From Alitta virens (lineage: Eukaryota > Annelida > Polychaeta > Phyllodocida > Nereididae), in assembly GCA_932294295.1 (NCBI GenBank), contig OW028575.1, forward strand, positions 43,558,753 to 43,622,752: DNA of 64,000 nt. The letters run 5' to 3'. Below, one piece after another: positions 69 through 58,363 of the stretch. The first letter of the stretch is position 1. Each line of letters starts with the position of its first letter. A program made the position numbers and the translations under genes. Under the pieces are notes generated by a model that was not told the DNA's origin, did no database searches, and was given only the letters and a program-made list of their open reading frames with translations.

Positions 69-3000
69 CTTGGACATGCTGGCCTTGGGATGCCAATGAA
101 AGATGGTACTGCTGCAGCAGCCTCATGGGTGTGTGCTGCCGAACGTCTACACTGGCACACACCTGACTCTCTCCATGCAGGAAGAAGGAGAATTTGATGC
201 TGAAGTAGGTGCTGTAAAATGGCAAAAAAAATTGTTGTAATTCGTGAAAAAATATAGCGAAAAAAAAAAGTGATATGAAAACAAAATTCATCAGGGCAAT
301 AAAATAGTTGCAGATCTTTTAATATATGGTGATGGTATTTAGTTTGGAGAAATTTTTCTTTTGAATAATAAATGTAATGTCAAAAGTGAGCCAAAGTCAC
401 CCTGATTTATGATAATGCAAAATAAGATTAAATCCTTTCATTTAAAGATAAGGTAAATAAATGAGCATTTACAAGGACTTTCAGGGGGAGTGTGAGTTAG
501 GGCTACATCAGGCAGCCAGCATGACAGCATACTTGCTCTTTCTTTACAGGGATTGAAATAAGTCGAGAACGATCGTTCAGGTTACATAGAGGTTACCATT
601 ATTTTTTTTCACGTGAGACCGCCGTTCGCGACAAAATATTATTTGGACACAACAGTTACGGTTAGGGGTGTTTACCACATCAATATTTATGGTAACCAGA
701 AGGTGGGTTACACCATTGTTGAACCTCACTTCGATCCCTGCTTTGGTATTGTAACAACTGAGCTATTGCAAAATTTAGCATTGGGGCAAATATCAGGAAT
801 CTAGCAGCCTACCTTTTGTCTGTCAACGTCATCTTGGGGCCATTGTCGTAGGGCTGCACGAACCACATGCCAAGGCGCACAAAGTTGTGTGATAGGAGGC
901 ATCTGAAATTAAGAAATCAAATGGATTACTTCACACATAAAATTACAAACAAGATTTCAAGATTTTTTATTTCTACACAGTATGTAGTTTTTCAATACAG
1001 TTAATACATTACATAAACAATAAAAGACATAAGCATACTTCGGGGGGTGTGGACTAGCTTACTAAAAAGTTTGAAAATTGTGCAACAACATTCTTTAAAA
1101 TCTGAATATCAGAAAAGGGAGTGTTATAAATACAACAAAATGTCATTAATTTAGTGAAGGTATATTGAGAATTATATCTGTGACAATGTCATGACACATG
1201 TGATGTACAATTTATTCAAACCTCAGTTCTCACAATGATATCTATACGTTGGGACTGATGAATATTAATTATCTTACCTTTCTATCAAGTTATGAAGAGC
1301 CTTGAACAGGAGTGTTCTGCATTCGTAACTCAACCCTCCATTAGACCAAGACCCCTTGTCTTGTTCTGAAACAAATTACAAATTAAACTGTATCAATCAT
1401 CTGCTGAATACTAAAAAATAGTTCACAAATACACTGTACAATTATCAAACATCACTTCCTACTTTATTTGACAACAAATTTCAATAATAAACTATCATTA
1501 ATATTGATTTACAGTATGATAACATATTGCCTAATTTTGTGCTGAACAGATGCTGCACATGTACATTGTACTACTAATATTTTGACTGACATTCAATAAG
1601 ATCTGACAACATTACAGTTCGCCATTTAGAAGTTTCAAACCTTTCGAACAGCATGAAAGATGTCAAGTTGTAAGTGAATTTCTAAAAGTTTAAACGGATA
1701 GCCCTCCCTAAGATCTGTATAAATTCACTTATTTCCAGTATATTAATTTCCTATCTTTCCAATGACAATTTTTGGCCTCATCAATCATGACCATCGGACA
1801 TATTTACAGAGAAACAACAATTTACAATGGTAATTACATGAAAAAGTAAGTTAATTGTTAAAGAGAGGTGTTTTAATCAGTCACTGTTCATTTTGTGCCA
1901 CCCAGGCCTACTCCATGCTCTATATGAAAAATATTCATGACCCAAAAAATATTCATGACCAAAAAACTTGTGGAAATTCATTAAGCCTCCTCTGACACAG
2001 ACTTTCACCATACATTCGGCATCATGCCATGCCATTATACAATAGCTGCCAACATAATTACAAACATTCACGGTCACTATAAAATGTACATCAAGCTTCA
2101 GAGTTAATACAGGGGTCAAAATTCGCTTAAAAATTTTGGAAGTCTAACGTACTCTTAAAAAAACATTTTAGGAGTCAGTCTCCAAATTTTGGAGTCAACT
2201 CCATACCTAACAGGTTATTTGCCGGGCCATATAAACAAACAAGCAATTATGAAACTCCTTTAATCGAAAAACATCTATTCAGAATCTGAAAAAACTACAT
2301 CATCAGTTTCGGAATCAGGAGTCAGACGGACTCCTTTGAAGTCAGATTTTGAGAGTCTGAGTGAAATTTAGGGAGTCTCGGACTCACAGGATTTTGAACC
2401 CTGTAATAAACTTAACCGAAGCAGTAAATAGTATCACTAACACACGTGCAAATTATGGGCTTTTCCATTTTAATTATTCCAGAACTTTGAGTTTACATTT
2501 TTAATTGTTTTTAAAATAACAGCTTTGATAGATATATTTTGGTTTCCACCTTTGGCTCTCAATTAAATAAACTTTCAATTCCACAACCCAATTTGTAAAA
2601 CATTGTGTACCATATTTTCTTAAAAAGTGGCACTTCCCTTGAAATCAATATTATCATTAGTACTTAACTTGGCTGCATTATCTCAACCAGATAAGAACAG
2701 TTTTATCTATTTGTATTTTCATAGCAACACAATAGTGTATCTAAAGGTTTGTTACAATAGTCAAATATGACAGTTGGCCAAACGGCATTGTGCCACATCA
2801 ATAAGCCAACCTCAAAAATCCCATTTGCCACTACGATGTAAACTTGACCCACATAATGTGCCCTCTGACATCTGCCAGCACACATCACAAGTGTTCTGTT
2901 GTGAATTATGCTACTTGTGTTCAAATCATGAAATTACTTAATTTAACATGGTACAAATGCCTGTCTGTAGCTCATTATTATGCAATGGAGTTCAAGAATT

Positions 3001-3938
3001 GGTCAGAATAGCAAATACACATGCTTATCAATACAGACATCAATCAAGTGTCACATTTGTCTACCTAGAAATTACAAAGCTACAACAGACTATAGGCTAT
3101 TATACACTAGTCACTAGTCTATTGAAGTGCAATAAATCATAACAGGTCAGTCAGCCTGAGAAAGTAATGACCTGGTGCACAGAATAGTCCAGTGCAGGTT
3201 GTAACAGATGACCCAGATAATGTTGATTAGGCCTAGAACATGGTTGACAATAACTCGTGTGGATATCCACCAGTGATCATGTGTAGATTATATACTCACC
3301 AGATAGTTCATTAGATAGTAGCGTTTTCAGCTTGTGCGGTTCATCGCCATACCAGAAGATCCAGAGCTCTTTACTGCTCTTCAGCTGATCTGGGGGTTTC
3401 TGATCTGAGCTGCTCCTTTGAACCTTCCTCCATACACATAAAATATCCGCTTGTATGCACTTGGTGTACGATTGTAGCACTGGATCATCCAGAGGCTCCG
3501 AACATGTAGACTCCGGAGCCCCTAACCTAAGCCATTTTATGCCATCCAGATCAGTCTGAAAGAAATAGCAGAGTTGAAACAAGAGCGAGGACGCCAATGC
3601 ACAATTATGATTATGCGACCAAGTGTCAATGCAGAGATGGCCTTTTAAACATCTCCATGCCGTGCCCCACCGGCACCGTTCCCAGGCATAATTGCACTCG
3701 AACATTCGTTTCCCCAACTTAAACAAACAACGCCATCCCAGATACTATACCAACACCGATTGCATTGTAATAGCAACGTCGTCCACTATTACCTTACAAA
3801 CTTGAGGTCACTCAGCACATTTAACACACACACAAACGTTACACTGATTTGAAATGGATCATAACTTACCAAAGCAAATAAATTCGTGTGGCAATCCTCT
3901 AGACTACAGCCGTTTCCGTGAGTACTAGGGAGACTCAT
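69..3938 (-). CDS. MED13: MED13, first five coding exons (partial)
   Basis: Mediator subunit 13 joins CDK8, cyclin C and MED12 in the kinase module that reversibly binds core Mediator in the nucleus. Five minus-strand exons join in phase: 3938-3870, 3555-3300, 1365-1278, 902-813, 211-69, all with GT-AG borders. They give about 215 residues. Recognisable family blocks, in order, are [64 protein letters not shown] split over the exon 3 border, [14 protein letters not shown] and [15 protein letters not shown]. These follow the order of the vertebrate N-terminal domain. The start is the ATG at 3938 because it opens the conserved SLEDCH exon directly. The last donor lies at 68-63, so the gene continues beyond the left edge. 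Invertebrates usually have one gene for vertebrate MED13 and MED13L. Introns carry two MITEs (547-740, 2110-2403). Confidence 0.93.
547..740. mobile_element. MITE in MED13 intron 4, CAGGGATCGAA-type ends
   Basis: A 194-bp element begins CAGGGATTGAAATAAG and ends with the near reverse complement of that (CTTCGATCCCTG). Flanks cttta (542-546) and ctttg (741-745) look like a 5-bp target duplication with one change. The same end sequence, including gaacgatcgttc, recurs near 22005-22052 in a BLTP2 intron, so this is a dispersed family. It encodes nothing. Confidence 0.65.
2110..2403. mobile_element. MITE in MED13 intron 2, CAGGGGTCAAAAT ends
   Basis: Inverted ends CAGGGGTCAAAAT / ATTTTGAACCCTG bound 294 bp. 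A perfect 5-bp duplication TAATA flanks it (2105-2109 and 2404-2408). The interior is rich in gagtc/gactc words and has no coding capacity. A non-autonomous DNA transposon is the simplest reading; the parent family is not identifiable from this copy. Confidence 0.7.
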
Positions 3939-4213
3939 GGTCTTTCCATGACATGCCTCATCAAACTTAGGGCATTACAATCCATAAGAAGCATTTAAAT
4001 AAAGAGAATGACGGAATATCCACGATTACTGCGGATTTTCACATAAAATGGCGACTGTAATGGCGACTCTTGAAGAACAACAAGGCGGTAAGGAGTCTTT
4101 TCTGTGATTGGCCAATTCTGTCATGTGACCGCCGTGACCCAAAAAAGCACAAACAGGCTGATAATGATAAATCTCACCACATCACACTGGAAAATGACTC
4201 GTATAATGGCAAG
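3939..4213. promoter_or_regulatory. Shared MED13/BLTP2 bidirectional promoter
   Basis: The start codons of MED13 (minus, 3938) and BLTP2 (plus, 4214) are head to head, 275 bp apart, so one short region must serve both genes. There is no obvious TATA box in a suitable place. Two ATGGCGAC words (4048 and 4060) resemble the core of the YY1 site common at housekeeping promoters. A perfect ATTGGCCAAT palindrome (4107-4116) offers a CCAAT box on both strands. The assignment as a promoter is inferred from geometry. Confidence 0.7.
4048..4107 (+). other. Short upstream ORF in the BLTP2 leader
   Basis: A 19-codon frame starts at the first ATG upstream of BLTP2 (MATVMATLEEQQGG...) and stops at 4105-4107, out of frame with the main start. 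A good donor (GCG|GTAAGG, 4088) lies inside it, so it could instead be part of an alternative first exon. The ATG words coincide with the YY1-like motifs, so this may be a DNA element rather than a translated frame. Confidence 0.35.
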
Positions 4214-25959
<21,746 letters not shown>

Positions 25960-35770: not shown

Positions 35771-37999
35771 ATAATGGAGCATAGTCTGTTACATTTAATA
35801 AAGTGGGCGAAATATATGGAAGCTGTTCTATGTGCTTTGTGATAAGGACATGGATCAGACTTTAGTATGTACAGTAATAGTTAAAGCAAAGAAGAAAGTT
35901 AGCTGTCCCACTTTATCAAATTGAACAGCCTATAGATGTCCTGTTAGTGGCAATCTTAACTTAGGTTAATACTTGCACAACCATGCATTGTTCCTATGGT
36001 TCTCTCTCCAGACCTGGACTAAGATGGAAATCTGAATTCAAAACATCAATTTTAATAGTTGTCATTAACAAAACACTATAAAAGTTGGCCTTAAAAAATT
36101 AATAGCCACAACTTATACAATGTGAAGGCTAAGACAATTGATACATGTAATAGAAAAGTCCATTTACCTTTTGATCGACAACATTATCCATCAGACAAAG
36201 GGAGACGACTCTTTGCATGGCACTCAATTCAATGTTCCTTGTTTGCATCACAATGGCATACACTGTTGCTAACTTCGTCATAATCTTGTCAATTTTATCT
36301 TGCTCGTTTAAGTTATTCTCAGGAAGCATCATATGCACCAGTAGAAGCACAAGCTTGGGAAATATCAAAAGCATTTCACCTACAATGTCAGAAGTATTGA
36401 AATTCTCCAAGTCTTTCCTTTGTTTTTTTCATGAGCACAGACAGATCACCATGCTTTCGTCTACCCATGAACTTCGCTCTTTTGTTCATGGTTCGAAATA
36501 ATTGATTGAGAATCTCGACTTTCATTCGGGGAATAGAGAGCACAGCGGCTGCCACCAGTTCTGAACTTGTTGTATAATTAACAACTGCCTTTAGCTTGCT
36601 ACTTTCAGACTTCATGAGTGGACCATTTGTTTTTAACCTATAATTCAATATTTCTTGGCCAGTCTCACTGCCTGTGTTGTTTCTTTGTCTTCTTCTTTGG
36701 TTTCCTTTTCTTTAAGGTGACTGTCTGGCATTTCACATACATATGATCCACAGCGCGTATGTTCCTGGCAGGAATCCTGGTCACCTCTGGTTGACATATT
36801 CCAGTTTGAAGAAACTGCAAAAAGAAATGTTTTTTAATGCAAACACCAAAACACTAACTTATTTCATAATATTATTTATAAGTATAGAATGGCACGCGGG
36901 ATGTGCAATTTGGCGGCATGGTTGAAGTGACGACGTCATAATTATTAGCATTACTAAAGCATACCTTACAGTAGCTGTCCTGTATCATAGGAACATTCGC
37001 ACCATCACTGATTGAGTATTGATGATCTGAAATGGTGTCGGCTACTTGACTAGACTAAACAGGATCGTGCTTGTCTGAAAATATATATAAGCTATATATG
37101 CGGAAATGTAGAATGGAAAGTGAATGATGTCATACATTCATGCATGGATTAGGTGAGCATGAACACTGAACTATTAGTGAGAGAGATAGGTGAAGGGTTC
37201 TGCAAATTGTAATACAAGCATGAAACTTGGCACAATTGTTGATATACACTGTATGTATATTGAACATTTTTGGATATGGAGCCATTCAATAATGGGGGTG
37301 TCTTGGGAACGGCAGCCATACTGGAAAATGGCAGCCATCGAACATACAGTTTAAACAGTTTAATATATTGAATTTCTAATTTTCATTAGATGTTAACCTT
37401 CAAATCAGCTATAAAAGAAGAAAAAACACATTTTTAATTGATGTTAATGGATCATGGTATCATAATCCAATAAAATCTTTTAATAAAAGCCTTTTTTTTC
37501 AAATTATTAACACAACGACTATTGTTACTGCTGTCAAAGTAATACATCCACTGGAACTGACTGCACATGTGGCACACACAATTAGGGTACCACATTACAC
37601 TGAGTTTTCCATAGATCTTAACACTATCATATATAAAACATCATTAGACTAACATATACATCATTTGATATACTATACTACAAGTATCCGACGAATTGCA
37701 CAGCAAACTAGTCAAACGTACAAGCAAAGATGATTCAATTTAATATTATGATGAATTAAGCAGGTTTTAGAAGTCTATAGAGTATATATTGGGCAGTGAG
37801 GATCTCTTAAAATGCTATTAAAGGTTCTTAATCGTTCAGTCTAACTATCAGTGAGCAGAAATGTAAAAATTTATAATAAACTTATACTAAAACTGGTGAA
37901 ACAGACTTGATTCCAATAAAGTCTTCTAAAATACAACTAAAATCAAATACACTCCATTGTTTATAACTTAGGATTAACCTGTTCCAGCACAGGCACATA

Positions 38000-39720
38000 A
38001 TGCTGTGCATTTTAGTGCTGCTTTGCGACATTTACAGGCCCTTTGACATCCTTTCTTGCAGCAGTTCCCTGCAGGAAGAACTAGCTTCAGGCAAATTGGT
38101 CCACTTGGGTGTCCAAATGTCCCCATTATCTCTTGACTATCCCCAATCTGATGGTTCTGGAAGATTCATGACAGTAATCAGTGTTTGTCTCCAGCAAAAT
38201 GCTCCTTGGTATGTGGTAACGTCATCAAATGTGAACCAAACATCCCAGGCAGTTTTCTTACCGATGCCACAAAATCCTGAAGTGTATCCGAACCCGTAAA
38301 GGCATGAAACATCGGCAAACTGTGTGGACTGGGATATACCTCAGCTTCTGTCCAACTCCAAATGTAATCCAAAGTTCATCTAGCCCTGTTGTGTGGAAAA
38401 CGTGGACTGCAAGCACAACAACATCAGTGTCAACTCTGATAGAGACTGTTTTGCATCCTTTCTTACTGGCATCAGCTGTGTGAATCATCATCTTTGTATC
38501 AGATTCTTCAAGGTTACAAGGATGAAGTCCGCCTGAATCCACATTCTTGGACAGGACATTCTCGCCATAAGTTGTTAAAAGGACTTGTCTGTTGCAATTT
38601 TGTCAATCTGGCTTGCAAGGAAACGGAAGAGTTCAACTTTGTTCTCACTGACACGTAGAAACTTGTACATGTTATTAAGATCTGCAAGTTTATATACAGT
38701 GGAATGACCTTCATTATGCCTTGCATCTTCAATGTAGGCTAACAGTTCAGCAAGAGTTCAGACTGATTTTTTCTTGATCATCGACATTTTCGTTTCTTTC
38801 TACAGAAGTAGCTTTATTGTACAGTGAGGCCAGACAAGCAGCATGGTATTTCGCTTCTAGTGCCACCAAATCTCCGGCACTGAGCTTTTCCAGAAGTTTA
38901 TCATCCTGCAAAATAACAGCGCAATGTCTGACTCTCTCATCAAGCTGGAAAGTTGATGCCTCCGTTTTCTGTCTTTGCTGTTAGCCGGCTGATCACAGAA
39001 GAAGCACAGGTTAGCATCTTCAAGGTACAAGGTTTTATCGTGCCCGGCCCTCTGCCTGGTATACTTAGGCTGTGTTGAACTTGCATCGTAATCAGCATTT
39101 TGTCTCTTCAATCTTTTTGTTTATGTCCTTTTGAGAACAGTGTTGCTAAATTTCAGTCTACAGATCTTGTGCCATCTTGCCTTCCTTGCCCTTAATGTTT
39201 CCTGGATGCCATTGCCCTCGAAGGACCTGGGCCTCCACGCGGCGAGGATGGAAACACTTGGGGTGAAGTCCTCTATCCCCAGTGGCTAAAACAGGACAGT
39301 GCGCATTGCACAAGCTGCTCCAGCTATCCAACGCAGACACTTATTGATTTTGTGCATGCTTCTGGTTTCTACTACCAACTATGGATGATCAATCTTACCC
39401 TAGAGAGCCTCTACATAGCCCACTCAGGTGCTGATGAGGCGTTAAACAATAACTCTACCTACCTACTCTACTCCTGGATGCCATTTCCTTCATCAAGTCT
39501 GCCAACATCTATTTGAGTAGGGAGATCATTGCATTCTAAGAACTGTTCAAGATTTTTTGCAAAAGAATCATATCCTATACCAGCATCTTTCCTTTTACTT
39601 TCTGCAGGACATTGCAAGCGTGCTTCTTTGTCTGCTTGTCAAATGAAACACTTTTCCCAGTCTGTACTTTTTTGTTGGGAGACATCTTGTGAAGCTCCGT
39701 TGGGATTAAAAAAATTGAAT
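38000..39720 (-). pseudogene. Orphan transposon protein: Cys/His N-terminus, TDVVVLA core, Cys-rich C-terminus
   Basis: The minus strand reads, in order: a segment with DWEKCFI, LQCPAESKRKDAGIGYDSFA, DLPTQIDVGRLDEGNGIQ; then (after the insertion) ARWHKICRLKFSN; LCFFCDQPA; SLQARLTKLQ; ESDTKMMIHTADASKKGCK; VDTDVVVLAV; DELWITFGVGQKLRYIPVH; LPMFHAFTGSDT; and a Cys-rich tail with CCKKGCQRACKCR. I know this architecture as a repeated, unnamed family of marine invertebrates. The paired acidic motifs (ESDT, DTDVV, GSDT) suggest a metal-dependent PIN/nuclease-like fold, which would suit a transposase; that is inference. At least five frameshifts or stops, including TGA for a conserved Cys and TAA after LKRT. 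Confidence 0.65.
39201..39491 (+). mobile_element. 5'-truncated LINE insertion with 19-bp target duplication
   Basis: Body 39220-39472 is flanked by cctggatgccattgccctc (39201-39219) and cctggatgccatttccttc (39473-39491), 17 of 19 identical. The body ends in a (CTAC)n-type tail after gctgatgaggcgttaaacaa. It splits the orphan transposon gene at the codons for EGNGIQ, which are duplicated on both sides. Confidence 0.85.
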
Positions 39721-40959
39721 GTTTTTTCCATTATGCTAGTTCTAAGTAGTTCAGCCTGCAGACATCACAAATGTGTACACCACCACCATTACTATTACTA
39801 CGACTAATATTCATGCACCATCACCGACGACCTGAAAAGGAAGAGCAACTAAAGCTAAGCAAGCAACAGCAACATTAGTCAAAACTGTGTTAATGTTTTT
39901 GTTGGCACTACTGCTACCATCAACCTAAAAAGAAGTAAAGAAAAAAAAGAACAATTGAACAGCAAGGTTGTCATGATGAGATGATGTTCCAATCATCTTT
40001 TCACTACTATTCTACCTGGAAGTAAGACTTGCAGCCAGAAGCAACACAAATGCTACACAAAAATACACAAGGTTTTATGAGGAAAAATGTTTATCAAATC
40101 ACTATTATTGCACAAATGCACATATATACCATAAAATCCTATCAAACATTACATGAATACACAAATCTGAACCATTTTCCCATAATAAATTATAGTTTGG
40201 AACACAACTTTTGACTTTGTATTGTGAATTTTGATTGACTTTGTTGCGCGAAAAATTACAAAATTGTCTGTAATTCAAGATGGCCGCCATCGTGATTGTG
40301 CGGCTTTTTACAAATGGCTCCATATCTGAAATAACTCAGTATATATAGGTCTTAAACTGTGCCAAGTCTCATGCTTGTATGACAATTTGCAGAATCCTAT
40401 ATATATACGGTCACCTATCTCCATCTCTCACTATATATATATAACTTACTGAATCTTGCTGTAGATCTGGTAATAACTGCGGTTCTTCATCAAGGCCATC
40501 ATCCCAGTCACGTAGAATTTGTGCACTTAAATCATCTGGTTCTATGCTGCTAACACTCGACAAACTTGGCATGGGTGTCTGTTGCAGAGTACACAAACAT
40601 ATTTATATCAGAGTCCACCCAATACTGTTATAAACAAGCGACCCAGTTAATTGTAATATCCCTATCATACCTTGTCCAATACTGTATGTTGCTTGGATGC
40701 AGCAGCTGATTTTGAATTAACTGACGATGTCAAAGGAGTGGATTCATGTGGCTCTCGTCTCTGTCTGCCGTTCTCCTTACTGTAATTACATGGCTTGATT
40801 GGACTCTCCAACTGAAACAGATATAACTATGTATCAAAGACTTCCAAGAATTGAAAAAAAGCATGTATTCATAATATAAAAAATAATGCCACAGGTATTC
40901 TGACACCTCCAGGGGCAGAGCTAATTATTATTCAACAATGACACCCCTACAACTTTGTC

Positions 40960-41915: not shown

Positions 41916-42640
41916 TTAGTGATCACGGACACGGCTTACGATGTAAAGGTCAGCGTTGGGTGTTTGGTGATACGGATGAAAAGTGTGATGGTTGATGATC
42001 ACAGACACGGCTACTTGCTTGGCTGCTGTTATCATGTTCTGGAAGTCTGCAAAGATTTTGTTGGGAGGCTTCTTAGGAGTGGTGTCGTTCGTTCTGGCCA
42101 CAGATGGTGTCGTATCTCTTCTGAGGGTTGATGTTCTTGATCTTTTGCTTGATGACATTCAGCGTAGCACCTCCAGTGGAGTCTATGGTGACGGTGTCAG
42201 CTGTAGTGGTCACATCACGGATAAGGGAATCCCCGATGATGAGGGTTTCTTCTGATGTAACTTCATCAAGTTCATCTTCGTCATCGCTGGTGTCTTCATC
42301 AGACTCTGAAAAGTTTAGTATCAAGCGCAGAAAATTTTGACTCAATAATTTGCAATGAGTTACGAGTTTTTTGCTGTTGAATGTTAATTTGAGAAAGGCA
42401 AGCATTCTGTGATATTAATACATCAAGTTTAGCTTTTAAGTTGGCCACTTGAGCAGGTAATAATCTACAATGCAGACAGGGCCAACTGCCTTCCACCTCT
42501 GAGGTAAACTCAACACACTGTATATGTAATGTATGATAACACAGAGAATAGGTTACATAACTTGTGCCTCTAGTTGTTCGTTTCCCTTCAAGATCACATT
42601 CGACAATGCAGACCTTGTCCCGTTCTGTGTTCTTCAGCTA
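41916..42640 (-). pseudogene. LINE ORF1-like: PHD finger, coiled coil, SGNH esterase
   Basis: Minus strand, in order: a PHD-like finger (CYHTLHIQCVEF, WPCLHCRLLPAQ), a helix/coiled-coil stretch (LKAKLDVLISQNACLSQINI), an acidic linker (SESDEDTSDDEDELDE), SGNH block I (LIIGDSLIRDV) and block III (RTNDTTP, normally GTND). This order is known from ORF1 proteins of CR1/L2-group LINEs. Two frameshifts (about 42400, 42085) break it. It is a fragment; no RT follows to the left. Confidence 0.65.
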
Positions 42641-56650: not shown

Positions 56651-57533
56651 TTGTGCTTTGTGATAACGACATGGATCAGACTTTAGTATTTACAGTAATA
56701 GCTGGGAAATATCAAAAGCATTTCACCTACAATGTCAGAAGTATTGAAATTCTCCAAGTCTTTCCTTTGTTTTTTCATGAGCACAGACAGATCACCATGC
56801 TTTCGTCTACCCATGAACTTTGCTCTTTTGTTCATGGTTAGAAATAATTGATTGAGAATCTCGGCTTTTATTCGGGGAATAGAGAGCACAGCGGCTGCCA
56901 CCAGTTCTGAACTTGTTGTATAATTAACAACTGCCTTTAGCTTGCTACTTTCAGACTTCATGAGTGGACCATTTGTTTTTAAAATATAATTCAATATTTC
57001 TTGGCCAGTCTCACTGCCTGTGTTGTTTCTTTGTCTTCTTCTTTGGTTTCCTTTTCTTTTTGATGACTGTCTGGCATTTCACACATATGATCCACAGCGC
57101 GAATGTTCCTGGGAGGAATCCTGGTCACCTCTGGTTGATATATTCCAGTTTGAGGAAACTGCAAAAAGAAATTTTTTTAATGCTAACACCAACTTATTTT
57201 TACAATATTATTTATAAGTACAGAATGGCACGCGGGATGTGCAATTTGGCGGCATGGTTGAAGTGAAAACGTCATAATTATTAGCATTACTAAAGCATAC
57301 CTTACAATAGCTGTCCTATATCATAGGAACATTCGCACCATCACTGATCGAGTATTGATGATCCGAAAGGGTGTCGGCTACTTGACTAGACTGAAACACG
57401 ATCGTGCTTGTCTGAAAATATATATATGAAGCTATATGTGGACATGTAGAATGGAAAGTGAATGATGTCATACATTCATGATGGATTAGGTGAGCATGAA
57501 CACTGAACTATATATAACTTACTCAGTGTTCGA

Positions 57534-57915
57534 AATAAGGTGTTCTGGAGTGGTTGTCCACCGGACAATTGGGCCAAAATATTTTATTGTCCGCTCAGAT
57601 TTTCAGTTGTCCGAAAAAAAACAACAAAAAAACACCAACACATACATAGTTCATCAATATGACATCTGATTTTTTTTTAGCTCCAAATAAGTTCCAAAAG
57701 CTGCTACTACGTTCGTAAGTGAGGCGCCACTATCTGCAGGGTGAAGGCAGCATCACGTACAGTGGGTTATGAAGTAGACTGGAGCCGATCTCTGAAGCGG
57801 CCGCCAGCTAAGTTATGAAGTGGTTGTCCGACGGAAAACCCCGTGGTTAAAAATGGTTGTCCGGCTGACAATTTGGTTGTCCCGGACAACCGGAAACCCC
57901 TTATTTTGAACACTG
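57534..57915. mobile_element. 382-bp MITE, CAGTGTTCGAAATAAGG ends
   Basis: Ends CAGTGTTCGAAATAAGGTGT and ACCCCTTATTTTGAACACTG-type are inverted repeats. Inside, gttgtcc/ggacaa words repeat. Copy A lacks it. Flanks acttact / acctacc could be a 7-bp target duplication in which each side has one change from acttacc. Confidence 0.75.
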
Positions 57916-58363
57916 ACCTACCAGATCTACAGCAAGATTCAGTAATAACTGCGGTTCTTCATCAAGGCCATCATCCCAGTCAGGTAGAATTTGTGCACTT
58001 AAATCATCTGGTTCTATGCTGCTAACACTCGACAAACTTGGCATGGGTGTCTGTTGCAGAGTACACAAACATATTTATATCAGAGTCCACCCAATATACT
58101 GTTATAAACAAGCAACCCAGTTAATTGTAATATCCCTACCATACCTTGTCCAATACTGTATGTTGCTTGCATGCAGCAGCTGATTTTGAATTAACTGACG
58201 ATGTCAAAGGAGTTGATTCATGTGGCTCTCGTCTCTGTCTGCCATTCTCCTTACTGTAATTACATGGCTTGATTGGACTCTCCAACTGAAACAGAAATAA
58301 CTATTCATATAAAAAATAATGCAACAGGTATTCTGATAACTAGAGCACATAGAAATGTGCAAA

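Follow-up and report, generated by a model that had tools for sequence, protein, structure and literature searches.

The DNA analysed here, referred to as the window, is a 64,000-nucleotide stretch of the Alitta virens genome (contig OW028575.1, forward-strand positions 43,558,753 to 43,622,752), which lies on contig C3 of the assembly that was searched (G000; 671 Mb, 23 contigs). It contains two copies, A and B, of a repeat with a DUF6589-type gene, and copy A is interrupted by a DNA transposon that carries the remains of a single protein on its minus strand (Table 1). The original prediction, made from the letters of the window, described a 3.26-kb insertion with TAT on each side and inverted ends of about 160 bp, enclosing an orphan gene that was suggested to be the transposase of an unnamed superfamily.

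The insertion and its TAT duplication were confirmed both by copy B, where the site is empty, and by matching sites across the genome. The junctions of copy A read ...CACTGAACTAT / TAGTGAGAGAGATAGG...CTCTCACTA / TATATATATAACTTACTG, and their counterpart in copy B is GAACTATATATAACTTACT; with TAT taken as the duplication, the two copies differ at the join by one extra AT unit, found in copy A only. The inverted ends can be aligned starting with the outermost base on either side; the match is good for about 160 bases and weaker from there to 202 against 184 bases, with 91% complementarity over 44 nt and a local score of 125, compared with 54 for the best of 300 letter shuffles. When the insertion site was used as a query against the whole genome, all 10 candidates were scored and 10 matches obtained (such counts from candidate scoring being lower bounds), six of them empty, three filled, and one partial, covering query bases 1-70 only. 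The empty sites continue 12-13 bases beyond the breakpoint, which is the full remaining length of the query, while the filled sites end precisely at query base 132, the final T of GAACTAT. The first and last bases of the element are thus fixed by the empty site, the inverted ends, and the genomic site matches. The two filled-site copies other than that of the window share its flanking repeat, L024 (contig C13) on both sides (95-96% identity) and L028 (contig C2) on the one side examined (93%), so the insertion probably occurred once and was later multiplied along with the surrounding repeat.

The gene that was predicted to lie within copy A is present there as remains, but it is not whole. In comparison with P0122, a database relative of 1,527 residues, the window copy covers only residues 1-266, 1204-1374, and 1444-1524 (tblastn); the middle 937 residues are absent, and what is left is broken by several frame breaks and stops and by an insert resembling a short interspersed nuclear element (SINE). 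Another 207 bp are absent at the low end of the FEN/EXO1-like remnant. The deletion took away both the DDE core and the two leading acids of the FEN set, described below. Judged from these remains, the window element is a dead, internally deleted copy that cannot itself encode a transposase.

Table 1. Features of the transposon copy, its gene remnants, and the surrounding repeat (window positions)
Feature	Position	Strand	Basis or remark
Surrounding repeat copy A, left flank	36356..37174	.	94% to 56703-57511
Left TAT target-site duplication	37172..37174	.	
Non-autonomous transposon copy, 3,259 bp	37175..40433	- (gene on minus strand)	Empty-site comparison; aligns to full-length L022 in four blocks, 88-96% identical
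Terminal inverted repeat, gene's 3' side	37175..37339	+	Alignment of both ends
C-terminal remnant with Cys-rich tail (P0122 residues 1444-1524)	37983..38214	-	tblastn
FEN/EXO1-like domain remnant (P0130 residues 1196-1372: EESD, VDTDV, TGSDT)	38215..38691	-	tblastn
Deletion junction, 2,892 bp gone (bases 1499-4390 of the L022 element)	38666..38668	.	L022 alignment
Protein remnant, frame-broken (P0122 residues 83-266, second Cys-rich part)	38665..39219	-	tblastn
SINE-like insert, 258 bp	39214..39471	.	Between 14-bp direct repeats TCCTGGATGCCATT at 39200-39213 and 39472-39485
Protein remnant, start (P0122 residues 1-88, first Cys-rich part)	39474..39731	-	tblastn
Terminal inverted repeat, gene's 5' side	40278..40433	-	Alignment of both ends
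Right TAT target-site duplication	40434..40436	.	Within an AT run that exceeds that of copy B by one AT unit
Surrounding repeat copy A, right flank	40470..40830	.	98% to 57942-58304
Empty site in copy B, GAACTATATATAACTTACT	57505..57523	.	Copy A/B comparison and genome site search

Complete relatives of the element exist in the same genome. A search with the window's left end, of the kind that the original prediction had proposed, gave 27 matches with both end types counted (27 of 27 candidates scored), and in L021-L027 facing pairs of ends flank all or parts of the same protein, the outer end of L024 being damaged. Over 156/156 bases, the 5'-side end of the window copy is 94-96% identical to the corresponding end of L021, L022, L023, L025, L026, and L027; to that of L024 it is 100% identical over 130 bases. 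The most informative copy is L022, which spans 6,128 bp and contains the whole protein (~1,550 residues) in three open stretches of 353, 261, and 936 residues, with no further open frame of at least 150 residues between its ends. One deletion junction, joining bases 1498 and 4391 of the L022 element, is common to the window copy, L024, and L025; since L025 occupies a different site, where it has a duplication of its own, the shortened form is a non-autonomous subfamily that can itself move, presumably in trans with the help of full-length copies. Among the copies examined, there was neither a different known transposase between the same ends nor a consistent absence of such ends around the orphan genes. 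Two further members of this group differ in size. The end pair of L026 (G000 C4:23965600-23974950) spans 8.5 kb because about 3.85 kb of other DNA sits inside the element, and no target duplication is seen. L027 (G000 C3:5200150-5201660) is a 0.7-kb miniature of the same element with both ends present, and it has an internal junction in common with L023, joining about bases 315 and 648 of the L022 element.

The protein belongs to a large family. With the window protein as query, 221 relatives were found at E <= 0.001, and a second search from one relative found 975 at the same threshold, with continuous frames of ~1,520 residues among the 120 listed; relatives named among the matches listed come from a priapulid, hagfish, molluscs, corals, fish, and Ciona. 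Structural modelling predicts that in the full-length protein, which is Cys-rich at either end, an RNase-H-like DDE transposase core containing a helical insertion is fused to a C-terminal nuclease of the FEN/EXO1/XPG fold. The best structural matches to the RNase-H-like core are DDE transposases; a Foldseek search with the core gave no match at E <= 0.001. The D, D, and E of the core are kept in all 21 genomic copies. The FEN-type acids (D684, D727, E819, D821, D845, D847, and D905) are found in 64/64 database proteins, with exceptions among the 21 genomic copies, in whose count one FEN column was blank and was counted on the alignment of the 64 proteins instead. By their order and spacing, we take these seven acids to correspond to the metal-binding acids of FEN1. 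The Pfam XPG/FEN models gave nothing at E <= 1 among the 19 proteins scanned, some of which are without the domain, and a profile search of PDB sequences returned nothing meaningful for the orphan protein. The acidic motifs that had been put forward as a possible metal-binding catalytic set belong to the fused FEN/EXO1-type nuclease and are not the active site for transposition, while the DDE core lies in the part of the protein that the window copy has lost. The suggestion that the orphan is a transposase holds up for the family, in that the same ends enclose the complete protein in L022 and four other end families enclose it too, but not for the window copy.

These four additional end families (C14 and C10; C4; L039 and L031; and L032 with L030, L033, and L034) came to light through a protein search of the genome in which 31 of 670 first-look candidates were scored and 42 matches obtained. 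A de novo search for inverted ends at 30 loci (L030-L059) found them in four (L030, L031, L032, and L039); many of the other stretches end within the gene. The ends of C14, C4, and C10 could be delimited once sequence had been joined or added; L033 is without its 3' end, L034 is truncated, and L030 has an altered TAGT in its 3' arm. All 13 delimited elements start with TAGT and finish with ACTA, and full-length members are 5.6-6.2 kb long, with 5'-TAGT termini, a single gene of ~1,530 codons, and mostly 3-bp target duplications. An exact 3-bp duplication flanks 10 of the 13, including five of the seven in the window's own end family (TAT in the window, L021 TTT, L022 TAC, L023 AAA, L025 ATA) and members of the others (C14 TGT, C10 ATA, C4 TTT, L039 TTG, L032 TAA); the flanks of L026, L027 (one mismatch), and L031 give no exact duplication. 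None of the 13 has a duplication of 4 bp, 8 bp, or 9-10 bp. The count leaves out L024 and L028, which occupy the window's site, L029 (one end retrieved), L030 (an end altered or missing), L033, L034, L040, L041, L042, L054, L055, and all loci cut within the gene. The probability computed for the 10/13 result (P ~1e-15) is too favourable, as the 13 elements were treated as independent and their ends as given, and because ends outside the window's family were placed at TAGT by eye.

Codon-position agreement between divergent copies (four hand-picked pairs) was 0.52-0.59, 0.65-0.71, and 0.33-0.38 for the three positions, while within families (eight hand-picked pairs) all three were 0.95-0.99. 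This pattern indicates that the protein was selected between bursts and that copies decayed after insertion. Within-family ratios of nonsynonymous to synonymous substitution rates were 0.66 and 0.73, from the only two pairs in range, and are nearly uninformative. Searches of the viral_contigs and genome_contigs sets with alignment A1 gave 14 and 30 pattern matches, of which none was confirmed, so that all comparative DNA is from the window's own genome.

Copy B had been described as reading straight through the insertion site; the empty site is indeed there, but it is followed directly by an insert of 392 bp (57524-57915, with ends CAGTGTTCGAAATAAGG...CCTTATTTTGAACACTG and a flanking duplication that is imperfect by eye), which from its ends we take to be a hAT-like non-autonomous element. 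Adjoining this insert, about 20 bp between TAC and GTA are inverted between copy A (40447-40472) and copy B (57919-57944). The surrounding-repeat site occurs three times within 40 kb (C3:43.596-43.634 Mb), in copies A and B and once outside the window, with one site filled and two empty. A Pfam scan of four window fragments placed DUF6589 in the surrounding repeat slightly below the cut-off, the other matches being weak and chance-like. Downstream of the DUF6589 fragments and on the same strand, a 112-residue open frame (42299-42637, minus strand) contains a PHD- or RING-like Cys/His run (YHTLHIQC...CLHC). Across the genome, DUF6589 gave 93 matches (102 of 172 candidates scored), with none in 14 control genomes, and many of the DUF6589 genes of this genome may be transposon-borne too.

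It is very probable that the window element is a dead, internally deleted copy from a cut-and-paste transposon family with a DDE-plus-FEN protein, most likely of the lineage AcademX, which was reportedly first described by Kojima in 2020. In such a family, the Cys-rich parts would bind DNA, the DDE core would cut the 3' ends and join them to target phosphates 3 bp apart, and the FEN-like domain might cut or trim the other strand, or process flaps and hairpins left at the ends; deleted forms would be mobilized in trans by full-length copies. No inverted ends were seen at five loci of the orphan gene (L040, L041, L042, L054, and L055), each with some flanking sequence on either side, which this interpretation leaves unexplained. 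A more specific proposal, which we hold only tentatively, is that one polypeptide has two unrelated active sites, the DDE site cutting and joining the 3' ends and the FEN-type domain cutting the 5' (non-transferred) strand or opening hairpins at the structure left by the first cut. On this view the partner enzyme would determine or reveal how long the duplication is (3 bp in these elements vs 9-10 bp in the helicase lineage), and the protein would be a eukaryotic, single-chain counterpart of TnsB and TnsA of Tn7.

The nuclease might instead do all of the work. The window copy keeps only part of the FEN-like domain and the Cys-rich ends, and the FEN acids are invariant in the database proteins, as would suit a transposase in which the acidic motifs cut and join with no DDE chemistry; full-length copies, however, hold an RNase-H-like core with its conserved D/D/E and DDE transposases as its best structural matches, and the window copy is without the first two FEN acids, which makes this very improbable. 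That only Cys-rich and FEN-like parts are legible in the window could also suggest a FEN-type host gene that an unrelated non-autonomous element picked up between its ends, an idea that is scarcely credible given that the whole protein, DDE core included, is enclosed by these ends in L022 and by other TAGT ends in further elements, and that the number of first-look candidates in the genome is as for a repeat family. The relationship with DUF6589 raises the question of whether the orphan DDE core and the DUF6589 gene of the surrounding repeat belong to a single family, the insert then being a truncated DUF6589 transposon and no separate lineage. The domain scores above the Pfam cut-off in four of five pre-flagged database relatives (P0122 being below it) and within three or more genes of the orphan family in this genome (30.7-31.2 bits against a cut-off of 27, positions compared by eye). 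Yet the match starts only at about profile position 217 and leaves the earlier part of the domain uncovered, many members are missed (one of five and none of eight above the cut-off in other protein sets), and five full-length relatives compared with the window match only the insert and not the gene of the host repeat (E <= 0.001); such an identity is accordingly quite doubtful.

An unnamed superfamily, as first proposed, here one of the DDE-plus-FEN type outside Academ, is unlikely. In its favor, the likeness to Academ rests on descriptions rather than sequence comparison, the relatives named among the matches listed are called uncharacterized, hypothetical, or after a tail domain, and Pfam lists the related core domain as DUF6589, a label without an assigned function. 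Against it, the AcademX nuclease is of the XPG type, the same fold as predicted here. The 3-bp duplication and element-encoded nuclease are, moreover, the two features given for AcademX in PMC10045372. A new superfamily is not required to explain the element.

The reading of the family as DDE-plus-FEN transposons matters beyond this locus: a large family would become a transposase fused to a predicted flap-type nuclease, a natural case of a DDE transposase carrying its own second nuclease. Its identification as a transposase would clear annotated animal genomes of false host genes and points to a function for DUF6589.

Among known systems, the C-terminal domain resembles the nucleases FEN1, EXO1, XPG, and GEN1 in predicted fold, but with only 11-15% identity in structural alignments and as part of a transposase. 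Homology to Pfam DUF6589 (PF20231) is remote and falls in the later portion of that domain, but DUF6589 genes here also occur in other repeats, including the one hosting this insertion; a text search of the open-licence literature found no paper on DUF6589, nor, by title among the matches listed, any Academ element with XPG or transposon with XPG/FEN1. The transposases of the P element, Transib/RAG1, and Hermes (hAT) gave no sequence match in the PDB profile search; their duplication lengths differ from the 3 bp seen here, and to our knowledge these enzymes are without a fused FEN-type nuclease. hAT and P elements make 8-bp duplications, a length found in none of the 13 elements. The same difference separates the 13 from KDZ (Zisupton), for which excerpts of PMC12730594 give 8 bp, and the TAGT...ACTA termini of all 13 differ from the 5'-CA..TG found in most cases, by the same excerpts, in EnSpm/CACTA-Mirage-Chapaev-Transib (CMCT). 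Within Academ, which is counted among the DDD/E superfamilies (excerpts of PMC9587614), AcademX has duplications of 3 or 4 bp and AcademH of 9 or 10 bp, a difference tied to an encoded nuclease versus helicase (excerpts of PMC10045372). AcademH is thus set apart by both its duplication and its helicase, since no helicase family matches the 936-residue main part of the L022 gene. By contrast, the present family agrees with AcademX, as there described, in being a eukaryotic DNA transposon with a 3-bp duplication, an element-encoded nuclease (predicted here), and a DDD/E transposase (by fold). TAGT at the termini and a DDE core fused to a FEN-like domain are features of the elements described here. 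Because its duplication and nuclease both fit the description of AcademX, the family most likely lies within that lineage of the Academ superfamily.
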